From: Fidelibacterota bacterium
Lineage (GTDB): Bacteria; Marinisomatota; Marinisomatia; Marinisomatales; TCS55
NCBI GenBank assembly: GCA_002725545.1
Contig: PBPW01000062.1
Location: 2,573 to 17,480 of the forward strand
Length of the DNA: 14,908 nt
Reading direction: 5' to 3'
Positions 1,276 to 14,908 of the stretch are shown one piece after another. The notes under the pieces are model-generated. The model was not told where the DNA came from and ran no database searches. It was given only the letters and a program-made list of their open reading frames with translations. How positions within the stretch are numbered: position 1 is the stretch's first letter; each line of letters starts with the position of its first letter. The position numbers were made by a program, and so were the translations under genes.

Positions 1276-3135
1276 ATGGCGATTGCGCCTAAATACGACA
1301 TCTCGATAAATGGTCGAGGGTACATGGTTGATTATACTAATTACCGTCGTAGGACTATTCCTGCACAAAAAGAACAAAGAGACACATCTGAAGATGTTGG
1401 TGAAAACACTCTTAGTAATGTTGGTCAATGGGTTAGAAGCCAGTCGGATTGGTCACATGGCGCTGGTCAAGAATTTTTTGATTTAAATGATTCAGACAGA
1501 AGAAGGTTTCACACTTCTAAGAACATAGATATTTTTACTAAAGGCCAGCTTCACATGTGTAAAGCCATCGAAGAAAAATCTTCTGGTTCTAATAACAACT
1601 TGTACGCCAAGATAGTTAACGGTTCGGTTTTCTATTTTTCTGATGGACAACTTATGAAATTCGGTAATCCTGATGTTAATGCTGGTTCGTATTCTCCTTC
1701 TTCTATAGACATGGATTACGCAATTTTAGATTGGACTTCTGATGGTGCATCTATTTATTGCGCTCAAGGAGCTAATGGTGTTCGTAAAGCGACTGTTTCA
1801 TCTACTAGCGGTGATTCTACAATAGGGTCGTTTCAAGCAGATGTTATTGAGTACGCAAACGGTAGACTTTTAGCTTCTGATGCAGGAAGAATAGTAGAAC
1901 TTAATACTTCAGGTGTAGTTCAAACTTTCGATAAAACTCTTACAGGTACATGCAAAGCCATAAAAGGTGGACCTAATAGTATTTATGCAGCTTACAATGT
2001 GAATGGTCAGGGAATCCTCTACACGATAGGCATATCGACAACAGACGGTTCTCTCGCCTACCCAGTCCCAGCGGCGGTGCTACCACTAGGGGAAACATTC
2101 TCTGGTCCGTGCTGTATCGATACATTTGGAGAATTGATTGTGGTTGGTACTTCCGCTGGGGCTAGGTTTGGTTTAATTAACTCTAACGATCAGCAATCGG
2201 TCACATTCGGACCTGTAATAGATACAGGTGGAGCAGCTTATGGTGTTCGTATCTCCGGCAAGTACGGATATTGGGGTACAAAAAATGGGGATACATATAA
2301 AGCTGACCTTTCTATTTTCACAGACACTCTTGTCCCAGCCTATTGTCGTCTTCTTTCATTTGACGATGCGGCGAAGGGAAATGTTCTTTCATTAGAACTC
2401 TACAATAACAAACTTTTCTTTACTGTGTCTGCCGGTGAATTATATGGAGAAGATGCAACTGGGGATCTTTCAGCTACAGCAGAGTTGACAGTTGGAACTA
2501 TTACTTTTGGAACGTCAGCTTCTAAAGTTGGCAGGGCTGCTTCCGGCAGGTTTGCAAAAGAACAAGCTGCATCAGCTTCAGGTGATATTGATTACAGTGT
2601 AGCGAATACTGATTACCAAGCAAGTTCAATCAATTATGGTGGTTTAGTTGCTGGTCAAGCTGGGACTGTGACAGTAACAGCTACAGATGAAAACAATGTT
2701 TCGACAGCGATGGTTCTTGAAGGAACAGGAATAGAATCTTCTTATTCTGCCGCAGACCCATCGAGTGAAACTTTCACAATTAAATTAACTTTGAATAGAG
2801 ATGCAGGTTCAACTACTAGCGGTCCTATATTTGAACGCTGGTCTTTTCATCCTAGACCCCAACCAGTTCGCATAGAAGAACTAATAACTCCTCTAATAAT
2901 ACAGGGGAGAGTAACGACTATGCACGGTTCTGGTGCTTTTGTAGGTTATGATAGTCAAGAAGAATATTTACATTTGCGGAATCTAGCTAATCAATCAAAA
3001 GCAGTTACTTTTGAAGAAGGGAATCTGTCATACTCAGTAACGGTTGAAGACATTGAAATGTCTCCAGTCAGAATGAGTGCTGATGATTCTTTTTGGGAAG
3101 GAACTTTGATATGTCGTCTTCTAACAGTCCCATAA
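1276..3135 (+). CDS. Large beta-rich tail protein with a propeller-like region
   Basis: The protein is 619 residues and begins two bases after the previous stop, with GGAG (1265-1268) placed before the ATG. After an Arg/Gln-rich N-terminus, residues of about 100-400 are a run of short strands and turns rich in G, S, T and N. Segments such as SDGASIYCAQGANGVRKATV look like the blade repeats of a beta-propeller. A second Ala/Ser/Thr-rich beta region follows (about 430-540), then a distinct C-terminal domain beginning near RVTTMHGSGAFVGY. Propeller-like platforms occur in phage tail nozzle and baseplate proteins. The size, composition and place at the end of the structural block suggest a tail or host-contact component. 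Which tail type it belongs to cannot be told from this window. Confidence 0.65.
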   Translation: MAIAPKYDISINGRGYMVDYTNYRRRTIPAQKEQRDTSEDVGENTLSNVGQWVRSQSDWSHGAGQEFFDLNDSDRRRFHTSKNIDIFTKGQLHMCKAIEEKSSGSNNNLYAKIVNGSVFYFSDGQLMKFGNPDVNAGSYSPSSIDMDYAILDWTSDGASIYCAQGANGVRKATVSSTSGDSTIGSFQADVIEYANGRLLASDAGRIVELNTSGVVQTFDKTLTGTCKAIKGGPNSIYAAYNVNGQGILYTIGISTTDGSLAYPVPAAVLPLGETFSGPCCIDTFGELIVVGTSAGARFGLINSNDQQSVTFGPVIDTGGAAYGVRISGKYGYWGTKNGDTYKADLSIFTDTLVPAYCRLLSFDDAAKGNVLSLELYNNKLFFTVSAGELYGEDATGDLSATAELTVGTITFGTSASKVGRAASGRFAKEQAASASGDIDYSVANTDYQASSINYGGLVAGQAGTVTVTATDENNVSTAMVLEGTGIESSYSAADPSSETFTIKLTLNRDAGSTTSGPIFERWSFHPRPQPVRIEELITPLIIQGRVTTMHGSGAFVGYDSQEEYLHLRNLANQSKAVTFEEGNLSYSVTVEDIEMSPVRMSADDSFWEGTLICRLLTVP

Positions 3136-4789: not shown

Positions 4790-5695
4790 ATGGAGAATCA
4801 AGTTAGTGTTATTTCAGCCACAGTAGAAAAGTTTCTACAAAACAGATGGCTTAAAGAACAAGCGGCTGGTGGTAAACCAACTGCTTGTTCTACTTTAGGA
4901 AGAGCTTCAGATGTTCTTTCATGTCAACGTAAGATTGCTTTTGGGATGGCTAAAGTTAATCCTTTAGACGTTCCGTATCTTTCAAATCTTATTGCTTTAG
5001 ATATTGGTAATGAGATGCACGAAAGAGTGCAAAGCGCCCTTCACGATGCTTTCCCAGATTTTAAGTCAGAGGTGCCGATTGATTTGACACCTTTAGGTTA
5101 TGACGTAAGTGGATCTGCTGATGGGTTATTAACTATTGCAGATCAAAAAATAATTGTTGAGATCAAAACGACTGCCGGTTTCGGATTTAAAATTTGTAGT
5201 GAAGGTCATGCAAAAAGTGGTGAGTTGCCTGGTGCAAAAATAGAGCATCTTATTCAAGCTGGCATCTACGCTCATGGGGCTGATGCTGACGGCGTTCTAA
5301 TAATTATGATTAACAAAGAGAACATGGAGTTTGGTAAATACAAGGTAGGTCAAACTCTTGAATTTGAACAACGGCTTGATGATGTAGTCCCACCTTGTGG
5401 TAAATATGAAGGCGGTCAAACTTTACGTGAGCTTGCTTTAACTGAGCTTATGAGGATGCAAAGAATCGCTGACCAAGTTCAAGAAAATGTAGTTCCTGCA
5501 AGGATCGACCCAGTTGAAGGTGTTATAGATAACCCTCCAACATTCATGGCTACTAGAGGCTATTGGAGATGCAGGTATTGTAACTACAATTCTATTTGTC
5601 AAAACCTACCCACTGAAGAGATCAGTGTTGAAAAGTCAACTCAGCATGTCATCCAAACTTGGAGTCCTGTTGCTAAGGAGGTCGCTAATGTTTGA
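4790..5695 (+). CDS. Cas4/RecB-like PD-(D/E)XK exonuclease
   Basis: The protein is 301 residues. The nuclease core shows H77 (GNEMHERV), D111 (SADG), the catalytic pair E124-I-K126 (VEIKTTAG) and Q156 followed by Y160 (QAGIY). A C-terminal cluster C261, C264 and C270, together with an N-terminal Cys (C45, in LSCQRKIAF, or C33), is the arrangement that holds a 4Fe-4S cluster in Cas4 and AddB-type nucleases. Phage proteins of this type resect DNA ends to give single strands for recombination. It opens the operon and overlaps by 8 bases a winged-helix protein, with an annealing-protein candidate, SSB and a second nuclease following. No CRISPR array or other cas gene is present, so a recombination role is favoured over spacer acquisition. 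Confidence 0.85.
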   Translation: MENQVSVISATVEKFLQNRWLKEQAAGGKPTACSTLGRASDVLSCQRKIAFGMAKVNPLDVPYLSNLIALDIGNEMHERVQSALHDAFPDFKSEVPIDLTPLGYDVSGSADGLLTIADQKIIVEIKTTAGFGFKICSEGHAKSGELPGAKIEHLIQAGIYAHGADADGVLIIMINKENMEFGKYKVGQTLEFEQRLDDVVPPCGKYEGGQTLRELALTELMRMQRIADQVQENVVPARIDPVEGVIDNPPTFMATRGYWRCRYCNYNSICQNLPTEEISVEKSTQHVIQTWSPVAKEVANV

Positions 5696-8497: not shown

Positions 8498-9055
8498 ATG
8501 ACTTCTCTTTTGCTTGCCGTGATTGTTGCCGTGAACTCTATGGTTGTGATACCTGAGATAGTGGATCAAGAATATCGTATGTATGAGCGTGGTTCTCATA
8601 TCGTGGAGTTACAAAAAGAAATAGGTGGAGTTCAGGTTGATGGGATTTATGGACCGAAGACTAGAGCGAAACATATTGCTTCTGTTGGTGGTGGAGTAGC
8701 TGCTGTTTACAGGTGGTACGGGTTCACACCTTTAACGAACAACACTAAACCTTTAAGCGTTCTAATAGATGAGTATTTTAAAACAGAATCAGATCGTCTA
8801 TGGGCGACACGGGTTGCTTTCTGTGAATCGTCTGCTTTGCCGCATCATGTTCGCTCCACTGCTGTTTCACCTGCTCTAGCTGTCGGAGCTATGCAAAACC
8901 TTATGCGTTACTGGTCAAGCCGTGCCGTTTCAGCAGGTTTGTCGGCTGATGCTTCTCCTTACGATTTAGAAAATAACATAAGGGTAGCTGCACATTTGTT
9001 TTACACCTCAGGTAAACATCATTGGAATCCTTCTAAGAAATGTTGGGGGAAATAA
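8498..9055 (+). CDS. Cell-wall lysin: peptidoglycan-binding plus lysozyme-like domain
   Basis: The protein is 185 residues. The first 20 residues are hydrophobic (SLLLAVIVAVNSMVVI) and look like a signal or signal-anchor. Residues 28-60 match a peptidoglycan-binding repeat (GSHIVELQKEIG, then VDGIYGPKTRAKHI). Residues 95-185 resemble a small transglycosylase or lysozyme-like domain: a catalytic Glu candidate E110 in FCESSALP, GAMQ at 130-133, and an ending with W and CWGK. C109 and C182 could form a disulfide. It probably cuts the host wall at lysis, paired with the holin at 4416. A virion-associated wall enzyme is the alternative. The ribosome binding site before the ATG at 8498 is weak. Confidence 0.75.
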   Translation: MTSLLLAVIVAVNSMVVIPEIVDQEYRMYERGSHIVELQKEIGGVQVDGIYGPKTRAKHIASVGGGVAAVYRWYGFTPLTNNTKPLSVLIDEYFKTESDRLWATRVAFCESSALPHHVRSTAVSPALAVGAMQNLMRYWSSRAVSAGLSADASPYDLENNIRVAAHLFYTSGKHHWNPSKKCWGK

Positions 9056-9057
9056 TA

Positions 9058-9813
9058 ATGCAACAAGCTCACCAAAAAATTGTTAGAGAAAAAATGAAAA
9101 CAGAAGATTCTTTCAATCTGTTTGGTGACTGGTGGGAAGACATAGAAGTAGACATTAAAAAAGCAGTTGTTAAACCGATTGATTACAAGACGGCTGCGAG
9201 TGTGATTATCAAGTATGAGTGGCTTGGTTGTATGCCTGCGATGGTTAAGTATTGTTTCGGTATTTACTTTGACGTCAATCTAGGTGGCGCTGTTGTTTAC
9301 AGCACGGAATATATAGAGAACTTAGGTAAGTGGGATAAGTACGATTACACAGGCAAGATCATTCTCTTATCAAGGGGCGCTTGTGTTCATTGGGCTCATC
9401 CTCATAGTGCCAGCAAACTAATAACAAGTTCGATGAAAATGCTCCCTGAGAAATACAAAGTCGTGACTGCTACTGTCGATGAACACGCTGGCGAGATAGG
9501 AACTATCTATCAAGCCTGCAACTTTGTTTATATAGGTTCTATGCGAGACAACAATCCAAATGTGAACAGCAGAAAAGATGACAGGTTTGGAGTTGAGATT
9601 GACGGCAAGTTATATACCGCTCGCTCCATGAGGCAGAAGGTCGGTTCACAAAAAAAGGAAGACATTTTAAATGTTTATCCTCACGCCGTGTTTGTACCTC
9701 AAGCTAGTAAGAAAAGGTACTTTTATTTTCTTGGGAATAAGAAAGAGAGACAATACCACCGGAGTCAAATAGAAGATCAAATTCAACCGTACCCAAAAAG
9801 AGATTTGTTATGA
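9058..9813 (+). CDS. Mom-like DNA modification protein (GNAT fold)
   Basis: The ATG at 9058 follows GGGGGA (9045-9050) by 7 bases, giving 251 residues. The core resembles the Mom family of phage Mu and its actinophage relatives: R106 in LLSRGAC, a Ser-rich turn HPHSASK (S117, S119) of the type that binds acetyl-CoA, D141 in TATVDE, and GEIGTIYQACNFVYIG (146-160). Mom converts adenine in DNA to a methylcarbamoyl form, which blocks many restriction enzymes. By analogy this protein would protect phage DNA. It has no nearby com-like translational activator that I can see. The family call rests on motif resemblance; a different GNAT enzyme is the alternative. Confidence 0.7.
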   Translation: MQQAHQKIVREKMKTEDSFNLFGDWWEDIEVDIKKAVVKPIDYKTAASVIIKYEWLGCMPAMVKYCFGIYFDVNLGGAVVYSTEYIENLGKWDKYDYTGKIILLSRGACVHWAHPHSASKLITSSMKMLPEKYKVVTATVDEHAGEIGTIYQACNFVYIGSMRDNNPNVNSRKDDRFGVEIDGKLYTARSMRQKVGSQKKEDILNVYPHAVFVPQASKKRYFYFLGNKKERQYHRSQIEDQIQPYPKRDLL

Positions 9814-10121
9814 GTCCTGAAGAAGTCGAAGAGATTCTTTTTACGATGACTGCTATTTGGACTCAGAAAATAAACGACCCTACGTTAATGGTTTGGAAGG
9901 AACTGTTAGCTCCAGAAGACCGTTCTAAAGTTAGAGCAGCTATCAAACAATTAGCTGATACCAGTAAATATTTTCCTGCATGGTCAGAGGTTAAAGAAAT
10001 TGTAGAGCTTTTAAAACGTCAAGAAAGAGAAGCACCTAAAGCTATTGAAGCTGGGAGTTATTTATCACACAAAGAAAATCTAGAACGATTAAAGGAAATC
10101 AAAAAGCTTAGAAGTATGTGA
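9810..10121 (+). CDS. Possible helicase loader or replication accessory protein
   Basis: The protein is 103 residues and starts in an ATGA overlap with the Mom-like gene. It is all-helical: SPEEVEEILFTMTAIW, then VWKELLAPEDRSKVRAAIKQL, and FPAWSEVKEIVELLKRQE. An N-terminal helix followed by 'W-x2-LL-x4-R-x2-V-x3-I' and a 'FPxxxEV' turn resembles the N-terminal domain of phage G40P-type helicase loaders. Without a search this is only a resemblance. It ends the plus-strand operon, about 70 bases before the terminator. Confidence 0.5.
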   Translation: MSPEEVEEILFTMTAIWTQKINDPTLMVWKELLAPEDRSKVRAAIKQLADTSKYFPAWSEVKEIVELLKRQEREAPKAIEAGSYLSHKENLERLKEIKKLRSM

Positions 10122-10148
10122 GTAAATGTTGCTCTTGCATGATATGAT

Positions 10149-10191
10149 TTTGTTTATACACATTTCACTCCAATCGTTTTGTGTAAACAAA
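10149..10191. other. Bulged inverted repeat just upstream of the terminator
   Basis: Bases 10149-10156 pair with 10184-10191 and 10159-10162 pair with 10180-10183, leaving a 2-base bulge (10157-10158) and a 17-base loop. The right arm runs into the A-tract of the terminator at 10189-10194, so this hairpin and the fully extended terminator stem share bases. It might tune termination or hold an operator. The loop contains, on the minus strand, ACGATTGGAG (10165-10174), the same ribosome-binding context found after the hammerhead elements. Confidence 0.45.
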
Positions 10192-10218
10192 AAACCCCCC
10201 GATTATGGGGGGTTTTTT
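10189..10218. terminator. Bidirectional intrinsic terminator between convergent operons
   Basis: A6-C6, a six-base loop GATTAT, then G6-T6. The G-C stem followed by T6 works on the plus strand, and its complement works equally well on the minus strand. It lies between the last plus-strand gene (ending 10121) and the last minus-strand gene (ending 10240), where both transcription units should stop. Confidence 0.93.
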
Positions 10219-10239
10219 ACTTGGGTTGACAGTCCTAGA

Positions 10240-11187
10240 TTATGCGGCTTTACGTTTTAGTCGCCGTATCTCAGCTTTGAGTTCAGCAACTTCTTCCCGT
10301 AGGGCTTTGACCCTACAAGCTTCTGCATTGTTTTCTTTGTACGAAATGCTTTCCAAATGGTCAATGTTCACACACGCTCTTTCCCCACAGATATGGTGTA
10401 TCTGGTTTCCTTCAGGGATAGTTTCGTTGTTGGCTACTTCCCAGACTTTTCGATGGGTAGCAATCCGAGTCAACCCTTCTCCATCTTTCGCTATGCAAAT
10501 AGACCCGTAACCTGATTCCATTTTGGTGTGTTGCCAAACTAAACAACCGTTGTTGTTTGGCTTCACGTACCCATTTTGAGGATCTAAATAGAAAGCAATA
10601 GTTTCAGTCCAGTCTAAATGAAACAAAGTAGGGCGTAACTTTCTACCTGCTTCAAAAGTTTTATTTTTGTACCATCTTGCCCCATGTCCCTGACAAATCT
10701 CACCGTATTCGATTGATTTTGGGTCAAACTTTGAAGGATCTTTAAGCCCTACATATCCTTTGTCTGTGACTCGACCACATGGGGTTCCTTTGGAATCTAT
10801 AGGCACCATGCAAGTGCTGTTGCGAGGTAAGGATTGAACTAACGGAACATCAGGGTACGTGTCTCCGTATTTGTCTAATCGTTTAGCATGACCACGACAA
10901 TGATCGTCAGTCTGTGTTCTTTGTTTAAATGAACAGCCCTTAACTATGCAGTTTTTATATTGTTGTTCTTTAATCAGTAGGGTTTTGCTACCCAGACAGC
11001 AACGCCGATTCTGATGTTTCTTAGCAGCACGTTGAGCGTTACCAAGTGTTGCATATCTTGGTTCCCCACAGCGAGCGCACTTCACATGCAAGGGTATTTG
11101 CGAATCTCCACTGTATGGCTCTAGTGGAATATATTCACATGCTCGCATTATCTTGTCGGCTTCTTCTAATGTATGTTTATTCGGCAT
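10240..11187 (-). CDS. HNH endonuclease with several zinc-binding modules
   Basis: The protein is 315 residues. The C-terminal catalytic part holds H245-R246 (ATHRKVWE), H264-H265 (QIHHICGERACVN), N274 and H277 (DHLE), the His-Asn-His set of phage HNH nucleases of the HNH_3 type. Before it are at least three Cys/His groups: C37-x2-C40 with C63/C64, then C80, C85, C97, H100, and C126, C137, C165, H168. The last 25 residues (LREEVAELKAEIRRLKRK) form a charged coiled coil. Such proteins are often mobile homing endonucleases that cut intron- or gene-free sites, but some are general phage nucleases. It is the last gene of the minus-strand operon, starts in a TAATG overlap, and has GGAG upstream. 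Confidence 0.85.
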   Translation of the reverse strand: MPNKHTLEEADKIMRACEYIPLEPYSGDSQIPLHVKCARCGEPRYATLGNAQRAAKKHQNRRCCLGSKTLLIKEQQYKNCIVKGCSFKQRTQTDDHCRGHAKRLDKYGDTYPDVPLVQSLPRNSTCMVPIDSKGTPCGRVTDKGYVGLKDPSKFDPKSIEYGEICQGHGARWYKNKTFEAGRKLRPTLFHLDWTETIAFYLDPQNGYVKPNNNGCLVWQHTKMESGYGSICIAKDGEGLTRIATHRKVWEVANNETIPEGNQIHHICGERACVNIDHLESISYKENNAEACRVKALREEVAELKAEIRRLKRKAA

Positions 11188-11681
11188 TACGCTATCTCCA
11201 TCTTCGGAGCTTGTTTAGCACGACTGTTTTTCAAGTGAGCATCAACTTCAGGATCGTCGTCGCCTATGTCGTAACGAACATTACGTTCTTGAAAACCGAC
11301 AGGTATCTGTGAGTCTTTAGTCCATACCCATAAATGGTACTCGTTAGCTGTATCAACAACTCTAGACTCAGCAGGATAAAGCTCAAGTGCTTCACGCTCG
11401 TCACCAAAAATGTCGTTTTTAATCTGCTGGAAATGTCGCCAAGGTCGATTCGTTGCCCGTGTATGAGAGTGAATACACATTTGGCAAATACCATCACGAC
11501 CTAACTCTTTGTTTAAGTATCTGATTGTTGCCTGATACCTGTCGTTTATCCAAACTTCGTCAGGCATGTCACCATGAAACTTATCTTTTATTTTTTCATA
11601 GATGTTATCGTCAGCTAGTTGAGCGGCTTGCATACGCATCCAAGCCTTAGCTTTAGTTGGGGCTTTACGTTTCTTACCCAT
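11187..11681 (-). CDS. DUF7694-like protein of unknown function
   Basis: The ATG at 11681 is chosen because GGAG (11691-11694) lies 9 bases before it; an in-frame TTG at 11696 would overlap that site. The protein is 164 residues with a basic N-terminus (GKKRKAPTKAKAW), then WINDRYQATIRYL and the well-conserved block RHFQQIKNDIFGDEREALEL, followed by YPAESRVVDTANEYHLWVW and GFQERNV. This block occurs in many phage and plasmid proteins of unknown role, which I associate with DUF7694. It is the first gene after hammerhead element a, so cleavage there would give it and the HNH gene a separate mRNA. Confidence 0.75.
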   Translation of the reverse strand: MGKKRKAPTKAKAWMRMQAAQLADDNIYEKIKDKFHGDMPDEVWINDRYQATIRYLNKELGRDGICQMCIHSHTRATNRPWRHFQQIKNDIFGDEREALELYPAESRVVDTANEYHLWVWTKDSQIPVGFQERNVRYDIGDDDPEVDAHLKNSRAKQAPKMEIA

Positions 11682-11699
11682 TGTTTTATTCTCCAATCG

Positions 11700-11760
11700 T
11701 GGTCTGTCTCATCAGTATGTGGTGACCAATCCACATAGACACCCTTACGGGTGTTTCAAC
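11700..11760 (-). ncRNA. Type II hammerhead ribozyme, copy a
   Basis: Read on the minus strand, the core is GAAA (11757-11754; its last A is A15.1). Stem III runs 11754-11749 with 11744-11739 around a GUAA loop. The cleavage base C17 is at 11738. Stem I is UAUGUGG (11737-11731) with CCACAUA (11722-11716), a perfect 7 bp, with loop AUUGGUCA. Then come CUGAUGA (11715-11709) and stem II GUU/GAC (11760-11758 with 11708-11706, one G-U). UGGUC in the loop can pair with GACCA (11704-11700). The TGA stop of the upstream gene (11758-11756) supplies the first two core bases G12 and A13. Ribosome binding site GGAG of the next gene follows at 11694-11691. Cleavage itself is predicted, not shown. Confidence 0.85.
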
Positions 11761-11986
11761 TAGCTTTCCTTCCGGTTTCAAGTAACCATTTTTCAACGTC
11801 AGCTTTAAGGAAAAAAACTAACCCCCATCTTCTAATAACTGAAGAAGGAAAATCATTACTGTTAATCCAGTAAGTAATATTTGATTTATGCACCCCTTCT
11901 TTTTTTGCTATATCTGACAAGGTGATTAACTCCGATAAACGGTAATCGTTTATATTTATTTCAGGTCGAGGAGGAACTAATTGCAT
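11756..11986 (-). CDS. Small excisionase-like (MerR-type) helix-turn-helix protein
   Basis: The ATG at 11986 is preferred to the GTG at 11995, because AGGGGGTGGAG lies just upstream of it; this gives 76 residues. Residues 20-43 are a helix-turn-helix (ITLSDIAKKEGVHKSNITYW) and residues 52-68 form a short wing and a final helix ending in VEKWL, the layout of excisionase and MerR-like DNA-binding proteins of phages and plasmids. It could be a directionality factor or a small regulator of the operon. It overlaps the preceding gene by 26 bases, and its stop codon lies inside the catalytic core of hammerhead copy a. Confidence 0.8.
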   Translation of the reverse strand: MQLVPPRPEININDYRLSELITLSDIAKKEGVHKSNITYWINSNDFPSSVIRRWGLVFFLKADVEKWLLETGRKAS

Positions 11987-12395
11987 CTTCTCCACCCCCT
12001 GTCACGAAAGTACCAACATTGACGTTGACAACATCTTGAGTCATTTCACGAACATGCTCATCGTGTCCGTTTACTTTGTATTCAAGGTCGGCGTAAAATC
12101 TTTGAACGACTTTCCATTTGCGTGAAGCTTTAGAAATCACGTAAGTACCGTTGTCGCCATTGTCGTAATCAAGGTTTTTGATTACATCAACGTAAACGCT
12201 TGAATTGCCTCCGAACCAGTTGCCTATCATTTGAATGAACCTTGCAGGCTCGTTGACACCCAAAGCTGATGCCGCTTGACAAAAAGCTTCAATGGACTCA
12301 ATACCACCGTTCCAATGAAGGTAAATGCCTACCTGTGATGTATCCAAAATGCTCTCAGATGAATCTTGAAAACTTATTACCGCTCTATTTCCCAT
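11961..12395 (-). CDS. Conserved hypothetical protein with YLHWNGG motif
   Basis: The protein is 144 residues, starting with GNRAVISFQD and continuing with VGIYLHWNGGIESIEAFCQA, a combination I recognise in many small phage and plasmid proteins with no known role. A beta strand and helix pattern follows (FIQMIGNWFGGNSSVYVDVI), then KWKVVQRFYADLEY. The C-terminus is a polar, Ser-rich tail. AGGAG lies 7 bases before the ATG, inside the 3' end of the previous gene, so translation is coupled. Function unknown. Confidence 0.75.
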   Translation of the reverse strand: MGNRAVISFQDSSESILDTSQVGIYLHWNGGIESIEAFCQAASALGVNEPARFIQMIGNWFGGNSSVYVDVIKNLDYDNGDNGTYVISKASRKWKVVQRFYADLEYKVNGHDEHVREMTQDVVNVNVGTFVTGGGEDAISSSST

Positions 12396-12735
12396 GATTG
12401 TTCTCCTTTCGTTCTGTCATAGATATAACTGGTCTAGGTGAATTGATAATTTCTTTTTTAACAATCTCATCTCTAACTTTGTAAATGTTTACACAACACT
12501 TCCTTAAAGAAAGATCGATTTCTTCTAACTCTTGAAGCCATAAAGCAAAACGTGGTTTCAAGTCTTCCCAAGCTTGATCTCTTGTTACAGATAAAGCCGA
12601 CAGGATAGCGTCGTCTCTAAAATAAGGATGACATTTTATAGAAGCCTCGACACTTGTCTCTAAGTGTTTAGCATTTATTAGTATTTCTTTTAGCCGCTCG
12701 GTTATTCCGGCGACTGGTTCAAATGGTTCTATCAT
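12385..12735 (-). CDS. Hypothetical helical protein
   Basis: The ATG at 12735 is chosen because GGAG (12744-12747) precedes it by 8 bases; the ATG at 12753 lies upstream of that site, next to the hammerhead element. The protein is 116 residues, almost wholly helical, with repeated acidic and basic heptad-like segments (ITERLKEILINAKHLETSVE; LWLQELEEIDLSLRK) and a Cys pair (CC at about 84). The C-terminal tail is polar. I do not recognise a family. It is the first gene after hammerhead copy b and overlaps the next gene by 11 bases. Confidence 0.65.
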   Translation of the reverse strand: MIEPFEPVAGITERLKEILINAKHLETSVEASIKCHPYFRDDAILSALSVTRDQAWEDLKPRFALWLQELEEIDLSLRKCCVNIYKVRDEIVKKEIINSPRPVISMTERKENNHGK

Positions 12736-12754
12736 TTGTATTTCTCCAATCATT

Positions 12755-12816
12755 TGGTCTATCTCTTCAGCGTTAAGAGACCATCCTTAACGGACACTCC
12801 GAAGAGTGTTTCGATA
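12755..12816 (-). ncRNA. Type II hammerhead ribozyme, copy b
   Basis: On the minus strand: GAAA (12812-12809), stem III ACACUC/GAGUGU (12809-12804 with 12799-12794) capped by a UUCG tetraloop, and C17 at 12793. Stem I is CGUUAAG (12792-12786) with CUUAACG (12777-12771), a perfect 7 bp, with loop GAUGGUCU. The core CUGAAGA (12770-12764) has A at the variable position N7. Stem II pairs 12815-12813 with 12763-12761 and can extend by one A-U pair. UGGUCU in the loop is complementary to AGACCA (12760-12755). The element starts one base after the upstream stop codon. Both stem sequences differ from those of copies a, c and d, while the core is the same. Confidence 0.87.
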
Positions 12817-12969
12817 TTATTTACAAACCGGCGCTATTAGTTCCGGATCGGTTGTATCAGGACAAAACGGTTCATAATTTTTTGGGTCGTCAATCCATGC
12901 AACTATCATTAAACATGAGATAAGCAACCCAATATAAACACGCTCTTTTAATGTCAACTTATTAGTCAT
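12817..12969 (-). CDS. Small single-pass membrane protein
   Basis: The ATG at 12969 has AGAGGAG 7 bases upstream, giving 50 residues; the longer open frame to 13032 lacks a comparable site. A basic N-terminus (TNKLTLKERVY) leads into one hydrophobic helix (IGLLISCLMIVAWI), then an acidic, Pro- and Cys-containing tail of about 25 residues. The charge pattern suggests an N-in topology with the tail outside. It overlaps the previous gene by 8 bases. Small membrane proteins of phages can act in lysis control or superinfection exclusion, but nothing here decides this. Confidence 0.72.
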   Translation of the reverse strand: MTNKLTLKERVYIGLLISCLMIVAWIDDPKNYEPFCPDTTDPELIAPVCK

Positions 12970-13273
12970 TTTCAAACTCCTCTCTAAGCTGCCATGTAGT
13001 TCTCTTGTGCCATTTGTGTTCAAATAGTCCAAGCTCTATCAATTTATTACCGGCTTGATTAAGTCGTTCTATAGCGTGACTTAATCGAGTGTTTTCTGGG
13101 TTATAAATATGTCCCATGTTGTGAGCGTCATCGAGATAAATGCACATAGTTTGATCGTGCTGTGCATCGAGAAACTCTCTAACGTAAAACAATATTTTTG
13201 TATCCTGTCCGGAATCAAATTTTAGAATTGCTTCTTGGCAATCTCCGGATATACCCTCTAAAACTAATTTCAT
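12962..13273 (-). CDS. Hypothetical protein
   Basis: The protein is 103 residues with GGGAG before the ATG at 13273. The N-terminal half looks alpha-beta (KLVLEGISGDCQEAILKF, then KILFYVREFLDAQ), and the second half has a helix (RLSHAIERLNQAGNKLIELG) followed by a Trp- and basic-rich C-terminus. No metal-binding or catalytic motif is obvious. It lies 39 bases after the previous gene and has no hammerhead element before it, so it would share the mRNA of the small Cys-rich protein. Family unknown. Confidence 0.68.
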   Translation of the reverse strand: MKLVLEGISGDCQEAILKFDSGQDTKILFYVREFLDAQHDQTMCIYLDDAHNMGHIYNPENTRLSHAIERLNQAGNKLIELGLFEHKWHKRTTWQLREEFEND

Positions 13274-13312
13274 TTTATTCTCCCTCTCTTTTCTTGTGCT
13301 TCTGTCATTGTT

Positions 13313-13480
13313 TTATTCGCCATATTCACACGCTCCGCAGATGTAATCCGCTGTGTAGATATTGCCGACATAAACACCATGCCTGCAATAATCTTTGTCA
13401 GGGATCGGTTCGACATCACTATCTAACACTTGACCTGTTCTAGCCTCTCTAAGTATTTCCTCTACTGACAATTCAGCCAT
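13313..13480 (-). CDS. Small zinc-ribbon-like protein
   Basis: The ATG at 13480 is chosen because GGAG lies 7 bases upstream, directly after hammerhead copy c. The frame is open further but would run through the ribozyme. The protein is 55 residues: an acidic helical N-terminus (ELSVEEILREARTG), then C32-x-H34 (YCRHGVYVG) and C48-x2-C51 (ICGACEYGE). This 'C-x-H-G-x-Y-V-G ... C-G-x-C-E' pattern recurs in small actinophage proteins. It probably binds one zinc ion and may contact protein or nucleic acid. Function unknown. Confidence 0.75.
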   Translation of the reverse strand: MAELSVEEILREARTGQVLDSDVEPIPDKDYCRHGVYVGNIYTADYICGACEYGE

Positions 13481-13496
13481 TAGTTTTCTCCAATCG

Positions 13497-13557
13497 TGGT
13501 CTATCTCTTCAGTGACTAGAGACCATCCTAGCCAGACACCCTTACGGGTGTTTCGAT
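13497..13557 (-). ncRNA. Type II hammerhead ribozyme, copy c
   Basis: On the minus strand: GAAA (13554-13551), stem III ACACCC/GGGUGU (13551-13546 with 13541-13536) with a GUAA tetraloop, and C17 at 13535. Stem I is UGGCUAG (13534-13528) with CUAGUCA (13519-13513), 7 bp with one G-U, with loop GAUGGUCU. The core CUGAAGA is at 13512-13506. Stem II is AUC/GAU (13557-13555 with 13505-13503). UGGUCU in the loop is complementary to AGACCA (13502-13497). The A of the first stem II pair is the last base of the upstream TAA stop. The next gene's GGAG follows closely. Confidence 0.87.
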
Positions 13558-13982
13558 TAGTTCGTGTAAAGAGTTTCAAAAGGAAATGTCTCTTGAAAAT
13601 AATCTCTAAGCCATACCGCCCAATCAAGATGTGTAATATCTCTTCTAGCGTTATCAAACCAATCTTTATAAACAAACTCTATTTTTCCGAGTGTGCATAT
13701 ACCATATTGCATGTTGAAAGTTTTAGGGTAAAAACGGATCTCTTCAGAAGGTCCGCCCCAAGAGATCAGATATTTAAGATAGGGTAGCTCCCCTTCTTTA
13801 ATCTCTTGCCAATCTAGAGACAAACCGTACTCATGAAATCTAGTAGTAGCGTCGTCTTGCTCGACGATCATATCGCTAGACTCCATACCTTCGATCATGT
13901 CCTGAAAGTCTTCACCCCTGCTTACGATTGCGTCGTCGATAACGGCTTCGCAATTTACAGTTAGCCCGTTTGATTTATTCAT
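13557..13982 (-). CDS. Conserved hypothetical protein with WGGPSEE motif
   Basis: The protein is 141 residues, with GGAG (13991-13994) 8 bases before the ATG at 13982. An acidic N-terminus is followed by RFHEYGLSLDW, then LKYLISWGGPSEEIRFYP and FVYKDWFDNARRDI. I recognise the 'EYGLSxDx ... SWGGPSxExRFY ... DWFDxA' layout from plasmid and phage proteins of unknown function that often travel with ArdC-like antirestriction genes. That association is recalled rather than searched. It sits between hammerhead copies d and c, so it should end up on a one-gene mRNA. Mostly soluble alpha-beta protein, no membrane segment. Confidence 0.75.
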   Translation of the reverse strand: MNKSNGLTVNCEAVIDDAIVSRGEDFQDMIEGMESSDMIVEQDDATTRFHEYGLSLDWQEIKEGELPYLKYLISWGGPSEEIRFYPKTFNMQYGICTLGKIEFVYKDWFDNARRDITHLDWAVWLRDYFQETFPFETLYTN

Positions 13983-13999
13983 TGTTATTTCTCCAATCG

Positions 14000-14059
14000 T
14001 GGTCTATCTCATCAGTAGCTAGAGACCATCCTAGCCAGACGCTCTAAGAGCGTTTCGAT
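14000..14059 (-). ncRNA. Type II hammerhead ribozyme, copy d
   Basis: On the minus strand: GAAA (14056-14053), stem III ACGCUC/GAGCGU (14053-14048 with 14044-14039) with a UUA loop, and C17 at 14038. Stem I is UGGCUAG (14037-14031) with CUAGCUA (14022-14016), 7 bp with one G-U, with loop GAUGGUCU. The core CUGAUGA (14015-14009) matches the consensus exactly. Stem II is AUC/GAU (14059-14057 with 14008-14006). UGGUCU in the loop is complementary to AGACCA (14005-14000). It starts directly after the TAA of the ArdC-like gene, and GGAG for the next gene is at 13994-13991. Compared with copy c, stem I changes G-C to G-U and stem III changes A-U to G-C, keeping the pairs. Confidence 0.88.
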
Positions 14060-14908
14060 TTAGGCAACCTCCTTTAATGCTACGGCTTCGTAAGATGACT
14101 CCTGAGCGTCTTCGTAGCCTTCAGAAGCTCCGACCCCTTCCATCTTGTCTAAAATGTAACTCGCTGCTTTCTGGGCATCCGTTCCGGCTTTCCAAAGTAG
14201 CTGGGCTCCATCTTCACCCTCTAACGCTCTTATCCAACTTTTAAGATAAGAAGCGTGATTATCTAGCGGCTGATGCTCGACACCTAAAACGTTAGCTAGA
14301 AACACTCCGCAGAGTTCAGCTATTAGCTCTTCAAACGCATATTTAGCGTCACCGAAACGACCCTCTAAATCTCTATTAAGACGGCTTTCGTATCCTGACC
14401 AATGACCAAATTCGTGACCTACAGTAGAGACCCATTCTGAGAGGCTAATAAATTGATCAGCTATCGGGGTAATAATTTTATCTTGCGAAGGAATAAAGCA
14501 GGCTCTATCGCCGCCGTTCTCCTCTTTCCAATTAGCTCCTACTTTAAGGAACTCTGACCGGATCTTTTCAACCTGTTCATCGTTGGTTAATTCGGTCTCC
14601 TCGACTCTTACAGGAAGTGAAGGATGCTCTGGTTTTTCACCCTCTAACGCCTCGACTTGTGAAGCATTAAAAACGGTATAAGTACGCTCTAACAAAACCT
14701 TTTTCATTTTGTGGTTTTCTTTGCAAGTCTTCCCAATATTAAAAAGACCTTTACAAGGTGTCTCCTCGTTGCAAACCATCTTAGGAGCCCAATAAATAAT
14801 CTCGGTTCCTCGCTCGCCCTTCTGAACTTGGCAGCCTTTACTTTGCCACTGTTTGTAAGTAGCAAACCGCCCATCCTCCCAGCCTTCACAACTCTTAGCC
14901 ATACTCAA
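14060..14908 (-). CDS. ArdC-like antirestriction protein (5' part beyond the window)
   Basis: About 282 residues are visible; the frame is open to the right edge, so the N-terminus is missing. The first part (FATYKQWQSKGCQVQKGERGTEIIYW) is the end of the ArdC single-stranded-DNA-binding domain. Later come YTVFNASQVEAL and a zincin-type metallopeptidase domain with H165-E-F-G-H169 and FEELIAEL (E193/E194). ArdC proteins are carried by plasmids and phages and are linked to protection of incoming DNA from restriction. A Cys-containing stretch (C46, C52, C62, H66), inserted between the two domains, is not part of the ArdC layout I know. It is the most upstream visible gene of the operon, and hammerhead copy d starts right after its stop. 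Confidence 0.88.
   Translation of the reverse strand: MSMAKSCEGWEDGRFATYKQWQSKGCQVQKGERGTEIIYWAPKMVCNEETPCKGLFNIGKTCKENHKMKKVLLERTYTVFNASQVEALEGEKPEHPSLPVRVEETELTNDEQVEKIRSEFLKVGANWKEENGGDRACFIPSQDKIITPIADQFISLSEWVSTVGHEFGHWSGYESRLNRDLEGRFGDAKYAFEELIAELCGVFLANVLGVEHQPLDNHASYLKSWIRALEGEDGAQLLWKAGTDAQKAASYILDKMEGVGASEGYEDAQESSYEAVALKEVA

Follow-up and report, generated by a model that had tools for sequence, protein, structure and literature searches.

This work concerns a 14,908-nt stretch of viral DNA (the window; bases 2573–17480 of the 17,480-base contig PBPW01000062.1) and four predicted self-cleaving RNAs, type II hammerhead ribozymes, that lie between genes of one phage operon. The operon, ten genes on the minus strand, fills the right-hand 4.7 kb of the window. 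Its first gene is an ArdC-like antirestriction gene (14060..14908; Pfam ArdcN, E-value 7e-13, and MPTase-PolyVal, E-value 4e-33; phrog_7245). Next comes a 141-aa gene of unknown function (13557..13982; phrog_36747, E-value 1e-12), the sole cistron between hammerheads 1 and 2. A trio of short genes at 12817..13480 (13313–13480, 12962–13273 and 12817–12969) stands between hammerheads 2 and 3 and a second trio at 11756..12735 (12385–12735, 11961–12395 and 11756–11995) between hammerheads 3 and 4, while a pair encoding a DUF7694 protein and an HNH endonuclease (10240..11681) lies 3′ of hammerhead 4. The extents of these three groups come from open reading frame (ORF) lists, supplemented by family searches for the last two. 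A bidirectional intrinsic terminator at 10189..10218 (minus strand) ends the operon.

The four predicted ribozymes and their junctions

A cmscan search of the whole window produced exactly four matches to the Rfam model RF02276 (Hammerhead_II, gathering score 37), all on the minus strand, with E-values between 1.5e-8 and 1.6e-6. Hammerhead 1 (13998..14060, 52.4 bits) occupies the junction of the ArdC-like gene and the 141-aa gene; hammerhead 2 (13495..13558), hammerhead 3 (12753..12816, with a UUCG loop on stem III and a compensated stem I) and hammerhead 4 (11698..11761) score 49.9, 49.8 and 44.7 bits. The initial annotation had identified the four elements and their layout from the letters alone and had proposed a minus-strand covariance-model search; that search upholds the identification, with four significant matches and zero others. 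The whole contig gives the identical four matches and no more, and so does a near-twin contig of 37.5 kb (L007; 99.8% identity across 11.3 kb). A separate motif detector finds the same four hammerheads in the window and none on the plus strand, and a permissive search for further ribozymes in 9900–14908 found none.

Each element consists of GAAA, a closed stem III, GUC, a closed stem I, CUGANGA and an open stem II of 3–4 bp. GAAA and GUC are present in all four copies, and the remaining core strand reads CUGAUGA, CUGAAGA, CUGAAGA and CUGAUGA in copies 1 to 4. Loop I (UGGUC) can pair with a GACC just 3′ of stem II, which is the published type II pseudoknot; its four pairs are possible in every copy and are all invariant, hence they give no covariation signal. 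Covariation, which includes hammerhead 1, is seen in the stems. In the four-copy alignment 98.8% of cells pair, and both sides have changed at 9 of the 21 base pairs, versus 3.8 in shuffles (0/500 shuffles reach 9, and 0/500 attain the observed level of pairing). The number of further pair types is unexceptional, being matched by 68/500 shuffles. When the partner strand is slid by 1–3 bases, pairing drops to 24–46%, a control that is biased toward a structure read from these same four sequences. Stem I is unlike at most positions among copies 1/2, 3 and 4 and pairing is nonetheless kept; copies 2 and 4 share their stem III sequence.

According to the ORF lists, all four operon gaps longer than 40 nt (74–81 nt each) contain a hammerhead; none is present at the five remaining junctions, where genes are 39 nt apart or overlap. 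The elements start where the preceding gene stops: the upstream stop codon abuts hammerhead 1, the upstream TAA overlaps the first bases of hammerhead 2, the stop ahead of hammerhead 3 ends at 12817 and the upstream TGA overlaps the GAAA core strand of hammerhead 4. Read from the sequence, the predicted cuts fall at 14038/14037, 13535/13534, 12793/12792 and 11738/11737, and the predicted new 5′ ends (14037, 13534, 12792 and 11737) are identical to those given by the initial annotation.

Downstream of each hammerhead comes the octamer GATTGGAG and then a start codon. An octamer search places this Shine-Dalgarno (SD) leader on the minus strand directly 3′ of hammerhead 1 (13991..13998) and after hammerheads 2, 3 and 4 (13488–13495, 12744–12751 and 11691–11698); the contig has five minus-strand occurrences, four of them beside hammerheads, and none on the plus strand. 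We dropped the idea of a ribozyme-specific role for the octamer. Because it also follows the terminator and precedes ArdC, where there is no hammerhead, it looks like the ribosome site of the window operon. The 5′ end of the ArdC-like gene runs off the contig, and its start and preceding leader were found in the twin. By eye, GATTGGAG also stands with the ATG of a 24-codon frame at 10175 (minus strand), just past the terminator and antisense to the end of a plus-strand gene.

Gene borders in other phages

The order of stop codon, ribozyme and SD site was examined in three pattern scans, all of which select consensus hammerheads. A first scan for type II cores yielded 64 viral stretches; among the 63 contigs other than the twin, 50 had an Rfam match at E ≤ 1e-3, 46 of them above the cut-off. 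A second viral scan gave at least 120 stretches, of which 80 were taken as loci, and a scan of bacterial and archaeal genomes gave at least 118, of which 80 were likewise taken. At a score of at least 16 the motif detector reported 281 matches in 1.48 Mb from 155 sources; one shuffled copy gives 3.

The two viral scans together contain 215 distinct hammerheads, the window's four included. With random positions on the same strand as the null, the stop of an ORF of at least 40 codons fell at −40 to +25 nt in 181/209 evaluable cases (null 24%), and 135 of 204 evaluable hammerheads begin no more than 5 nt from an ORF stop (null 4.9%). On the other side, an SD site and start codon lie within 45 nt in 149/210 (null 10%), at a near-constant distance with a median of 23 nt. 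Hammerheads of the same locus share a strand in 302 of 304 pairs. The bacterial and archaeal genome contigs (82 distinct hammerheads in 80 loci) are alike, with a stop in 65/77 (null 20%) and an SD site plus start in 52/77 (null 7%). Two contigs of metagenome-assembled genomes, one from Lokiarchaeota (L409) and one from Acidimicrobiaceae (L372), carry four type II hammerheads each by the detector.

Relatives of the ArdC-like gene were selected by protein alone (the best 80 of 536 confirmed, 31–41% identical apart from the twin). In this set a hammerhead lies 1–3 nt past the ArdC stop in 6 of 77 evaluable relatives, the twin included, and within 400 nt upstream of the ArdC match in 0 of 77. One additional hammerhead was found elsewhere in L293. 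Across the 79 non-twin loci, five of the six hammerhead matches fall within 2.7% of the sequence, with a score-14 match in L299 omitted; that match looks spurious and was not used. By eye the five non-twin ArdC-linked hammerheads make about three sequence groups (L276/L292, L270/L299 and L294). In the hammerhead-bearing relatives the ArdC junction keeps a predicted ribozyme although its sequence is lost. At other orthologous junctions, too, stems that have diverged at the majority of positions can remain paired, a comparison in which the detector itself requires pairing. The ArdC relative L008 (36% identity) has no hammerhead.

Far larger arrays exist. On one strand of a 64.8 kb viral contig (G041; locus L133), Rfam matches 18 hammerheads, of which eight exceed the cut-off. 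Relaxing the detector yields 27 hammerheads in 19 kb of this locus and 0 on the opposite strand (20 shuffles together give 1); with an Rfam match that it missed at 9934–10000 (38.2 bits) and an element near 5083 seen by eye, the hammerhead candidates number 29. Copies in this array can share stem III sequences. At junctions within the same array, at 2303–2367 and 2665–2729, we found two elements that in our judgement are candidate ribozymes like that of hepatitis delta virus (HDV), bringing the operon to about 31 ribozyme candidates. They score 34.3 and 28.1 bits, below the RF02682 gathering score of 44, with E-values of 1e-4 and 3e-3 in a 511-base search and 0.006 and 0.16 in a 28-kb search; P1, P3 and P4 were aligned by the model (with one P1 mismatch in the second element) and P2 by eye. 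A GC-rich hairpin lies before each of them, its end 2 nt ahead of the predicted cut; the fold z-scores of the hairpins are −3.1 and −1.4, the second unexceptional. If active, the HDV-like elements would yield ends resembling those of type II hammerheads, with a hairpin closing the upstream RNA and a folded downstream start before a ribosome site. A third HDV-like element, in L460, has by eye a similar layout with the hairpin 4 nt ahead of the cut. An HDV-pattern match in L461 was dropped, as it reads as coding sequence.

Some further features of these loci were seen in passing. Short repeats with GCGC/GCGTG and AACCC motifs occur by eye at L133 7540–7830 and 15060–16060, where there are no clear genes; a tandem repeat finder reports one 36-nt pair there, at 15861–15931. 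In L462, a 146 kb viral contig, a group I intron (2012–2235, minus strand) lies about 1 kb from an HDV-like element.

Hammerhead-length DNA matches pointed to Streptomyces phages. Whole-genome searches gave nine Rfam matches each in Omar, R4, Spernnie and Daudau (eight above the cut-off in Daudau), every one of them within the 40.4–49.5 kb region of the minus strand; detector counts for Omar, R4, Daudau and Spernnie are 9, 9, 9 and 10. By annotation, gaps of at least 45 nt contain a hammerhead in 6/7 cases in Omar, 8/9 in Daudau, 9/11 in Spernnie and 3/6 in R4, and shorter gaps in 0/15, 0/21, 0/11 and 0/27, respectively. The remaining hammerheads of these phages overlap annotated genes. One hammerhead of Daudau lies 24 nt before an OCR-like antirestriction gene. 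The whole genomes of Hydra, GreenWeasel, Stella and WRightOn have no Rfam hammerheads. Pseudomonas phage Knedl has a 59-nt match in which neither the detector nor Rfam finds a hammerhead.

In the right-arm operon of Hydra (L469) and GreenWeasel (L470), gaps of at least 45 nt contain a 40-nt element instead (10/12 and 5/9, respectively). It is built of a 5-bp stem, an 11-nt linker and a 6-bp stem with a TTCGANN T-loop, usually followed by AC, and looks like the acceptor arm and T arm of a tRNA. All 15 copies have the sense orientation; shuffling either locus 20 times gives zero, and no copy occurs elsewhere in the Hydra genome. The hairpins are missing from the annotation of both records, a tRNA model finds no match at E ≤ 10 in either genome and ARAGORN finds none in the examined regions; possibly this is a new RNA element. 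With seven stem pairs left unconstrained, a sequence pattern for the element matched 63 viral stretches, which contain 62 distinct sites. Variation is seen in five of the seven pairs, which form in 59–62 of the 62 sites, versus shuffled maxima of 37–50; the other two hardly vary and carry little information. At least three copies are present in 40 of the 63 loci, and the detector finds a hammerhead in 0/63. Conversely, the 154 hammerhead loci contain one tRNA-like match each in L020 and L178, neither resembling the Hydra element.

The two kinds of element tend to occupy the same borders. We compared reciprocal orthologs between Hydra or GreenWeasel and Omar, Daudau, Spernnie and R4. On the start side, a hammerhead precedes the ortholog in 18/25 pairs with a tRNA-like element versus 6/72 pairs without; on the stop side, a hammerhead follows it in 18/35 versus 8/62. 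The Fisher values, 2e-9 and 8e-5, overstate independence because ortholog pairs share ancestry; tallied by hand by gene, the start side gives 8/9 versus 3/21 (Fisher 2e-4).

The tRNA-like hairpin would likely be cut by host RNase P or RNase Z. In mitochondrial transcripts, tRNAs at gene borders mark the cut sites of polycistronic RNA. The border hairpins of Hydra and GreenWeasel would be akin to this punctuation; unlike the mitochondrial tRNAs they are unrecognized as tRNAs, and the window uses ribozymes.

Several details of these and other phage genomes were recorded as well. Near its right end the Omar genome has an Rfam match to a small-subunit rRNA fragment (L463 550–667, 68 bits). In the right arm of Stella (L534, 38996–44421) eight of nine wide gaps have, by eye, a ribosome site resembling GGGAGAGA or GGGGAGAG at their end, in several cases after a hairpin, and two of the gaps share GGTG...TTGCCACC flanks; this might be a further processing element. 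Dulem virus 39 (L467) carries two Rfam hammerheads, a weaker third by the detector, several tRNAs, a RAGATH-27 RNA and an rtcB ligase gene, and the substrates of the rtcB ligase are the kind of ends that hammerheads make. Two other scored matches in this virus (L467 2566–2653 and 16–134) look spurious and were not used.

Cleavage as a probable operon punctuation and its alternatives

Each ribozyme would cleave co-transcriptionally, cutting the transcript just past the preceding stop codon, so that one transcript would become five mRNAs. The upstream mRNA would be closed by its own stem III hairpin and carry a 2′,3′-cyclic phosphate; the downstream mRNA would start with a 5′-hydroxyl (5′-OH) and with the stem I hairpin, which the pseudoknot would hold immediately ahead of the ribosome site. 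Since both new ends would be structured, neighbouring cistrons could likely differ in lifetime and translation despite their shared transcript. We put at roughly 0.75 the probability that the four hammerheads punctuate the window operon in this manner, by cuts past stop codons that give five mRNAs with structured ends.

A wider reading, which we favour slightly over its negation, is that phages punctuate long operons with interchangeable cutters, in a slot consisting of stop, hairpin, cut, folded leader, ribosome site and start, where the cut is conserved and not the cutter. Type II hammerheads, HDV-like ribozymes and the 40-nt tRNA-like minihelix would jointly, as part of that reading and with the same reserve, be cutters in this slot; the window would be one such operon, and the Streptomyces phages would show one cutter replaced by another at orthologous borders. 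Selection appears to act on cutting at the gene boundary and not on the hammerhead itself, given that matching boundaries in other phages are taken by other predicted cutters. The common thread, a predicted cut at a border with structured ends on both sides, therefore favours mRNA punctuation over destabilization, DNA linkers and circles.

The initial annotation had divided the transcript into the same gene units and proposed an mRNA-splitting system. Both are supported, and Perreault et al. (2011; PMC3088659) had already made the same proposal, in which processing turns long phage transcripts into operon- or gene-length mRNAs. The accompanying claim, that a set of four hammerheads placed between cistrons had not been described, was wrong. 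Clustered prophage hammerheads flanking single genes or short gene blocks were published in that paper, and the window belongs to this kind, with several hammerheads flanking genes and short gene blocks. The available passages describe clusters in Clostridium scindens, Azorhizobium and Agrobacterium (a triple around ardA), with three tandem arrangements shown to cleave in vitro and the A. tumefaciens triple shown to do so in E. coli; the role of the clusters was left open. The likeness extends to the adjacent antirestriction gene: the Agrobacterium triple flanks ardA, and the window's first hammerhead follows an ArdC-like gene. What sets the window apart is that each wide junction of a single operon holds a type II copy, four in all, and that the phage has WhiB genes. 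Neither the spacing rule (stop, ribozyme, SD site) nor the exchange of cutters was met in those passages.

The same source reports that in haloviruses HF1/HF2 a transcript 5′ end lies within 3 nt of a hammerhead cut (PMC3088659). Like the window elements, this HHphage stands shortly before a phage start codon (at 13 nt in HF1/HF2); unlike them, it has a core variant analogous to a high-magnesium one, and the passages name a single element and no array. Clusters of hammerhead and twister ribozymes near Mu-like phage genes, whose reason was called unknown in 2023 (PMC10085705), resemble the window in that self-cleaving ribozymes are enriched near each other in phage regions; the available passages of that paper contain no spacing rule or replacement at orthologous borders. 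Judged by title and the start of the abstract, no paper listed by searches of open-licence PMC articles dealt with arrays of this size, the spacing rule or Streptomyces phage hammerheads, or with exchangeable cutters at orthologous borders, at which few searches were aimed.

Several observations weigh against punctuation, in the window or as a general habit. The first 5.5 kb of the twin has eight promoter-like sites, with 10.3 expected by chance, and none precedes ArdC; it is therefore from gene order and the terminator that the genes are read as a single operon. When the 62-nt downstream product is folded in isolation, the lowest-energy structure of copies 2 and 3 is one other than stem I. 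An Rfam match is absent in 13 of the 63 pattern-matched viral contigs, and no hammerhead follows the gene in 71 of the 77 evaluable ArdC relatives (best 80 of 536). Stella and WRightOn, which are matched by the window's 619-aa protein, have no hammerheads, so the wider group can do without the ribozymes. Of the 35 stop-side ortholog pairs with a tRNA-like site, 17 lack a hammerhead, and the HDV-like element of L462, having neither an upstream hairpin nor a start codon, is a counter-example to a universal layout. Finally, the glmS ribozyme, through self-cleavage in a 5′ untranslated region, leaves an mRNA with a 5′-OH as the window elements would, and in Bacillus subtilis this 5′-OH product is degraded, which argues against stabilized downstream pieces. 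Unlike the window elements, glmS is ligand-dependent and single and has a different fold.

The glmS outcome in Bacillus is also what lends weight to cleavage acting as a down-regulator, in which a host nuclease would remove the exposed 5′-OH piece and downstream genes would be lowered, not insulated; anatomically, such a role would suit any cut upstream of a start codon. Still, we consider this unlikely: a constitutive ribozyme before nearly every gene of L133 would depress most of that operon, the SD site and start keep a near-constant distance from the ribozyme, and the new 5′ end would sit in a hairpin and pseudoknot.

Stem III sequences common to copies in one phage (window copies 2 and 4; L133) would also be expected of recombination linkers or mobile inserts that aid the swapping of gene cassettes, with cleavage incidental, and a Streptomyces phage hammerhead can remain behind an orthologous gene while the next gene is without a reciprocal ortholog. 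However, stems that change by compensation are unneeded in DNA linkers, orientation is fixed, and HDV-like and tRNA-like elements, with another fold and sequence, stand at equivalent borders, which together make linkers quite improbable.

That the elements fold without useful cleavage in vivo, as intercistronic hairpins or decaying relics, we regard as very improbable. Four of the 18 consensus hammerheads assayed in 2011 were indeed inactive in vitro (PMC3088659); in the window, all four cores are consensus, the cleavage base is C and the pseudoknot sequence is intact, and replacement by HDV-like and tRNA-like elements points to cutting. Least credible is a retrozyme-like rejoining of cut ends, by ribozyme or RtcB ligase, into circular or spliced RNAs: two same-strand hammerheads can free a unit with joinable ends, and Dulem virus 39 combines hammerheads with rtcB, but what the window's hammerheads would release are complete protein genes, each unit having its own SD site, rather than the non-coding repeat units of retrozymes, no reverse transcriptase or RNA ligase family occurs among the 20 window proteins scanned with Pfam (a subset of the ORFs), and spliced or circular products were sought in 2011 and none detected (PMC3088659).

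For punctuation, the Streptomyces phage comparison makes the function of such clusters testable. A single operon holds nine hammerheads in isolated phages such as R4 of S. coelicolor, and in isolated relatives many of those gene borders are occupied by a different element. Should both kinds of element be cut, RNA processing would be a routine punctuation of phage operons, altering transcript annotation and expression models.

The phage around the operon

Non-coding DNA makes up 7.4% of the operon. The last gene of the 11756..12735 trio encodes an excisionase-like helix-turn-helix protein; for the 12817..13480 trio, Pfam and PHROG searches gave no informative family. A DNA search of the operon against phage records found no match, and a protein search for relatives of the 141-aa gene found the near-twin contig only.

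A family search revealed two WhiB genes in the window phage. A 619-aa protein encoded on the plus strand has 21 distant matches in phage records, 19 of them Streptomyces, all below 60% identity (21.6–24.9% in the rows listed). Because of the two WhiB genes and these mostly Streptomyces matches, an actinobacterial host is suggested. Near the operon with the ArdC-like gene, a Mom-family DNA-modification protein is encoded on the plus strand (window 9040–9813), so that one phage carries two likely anti-restriction functions.

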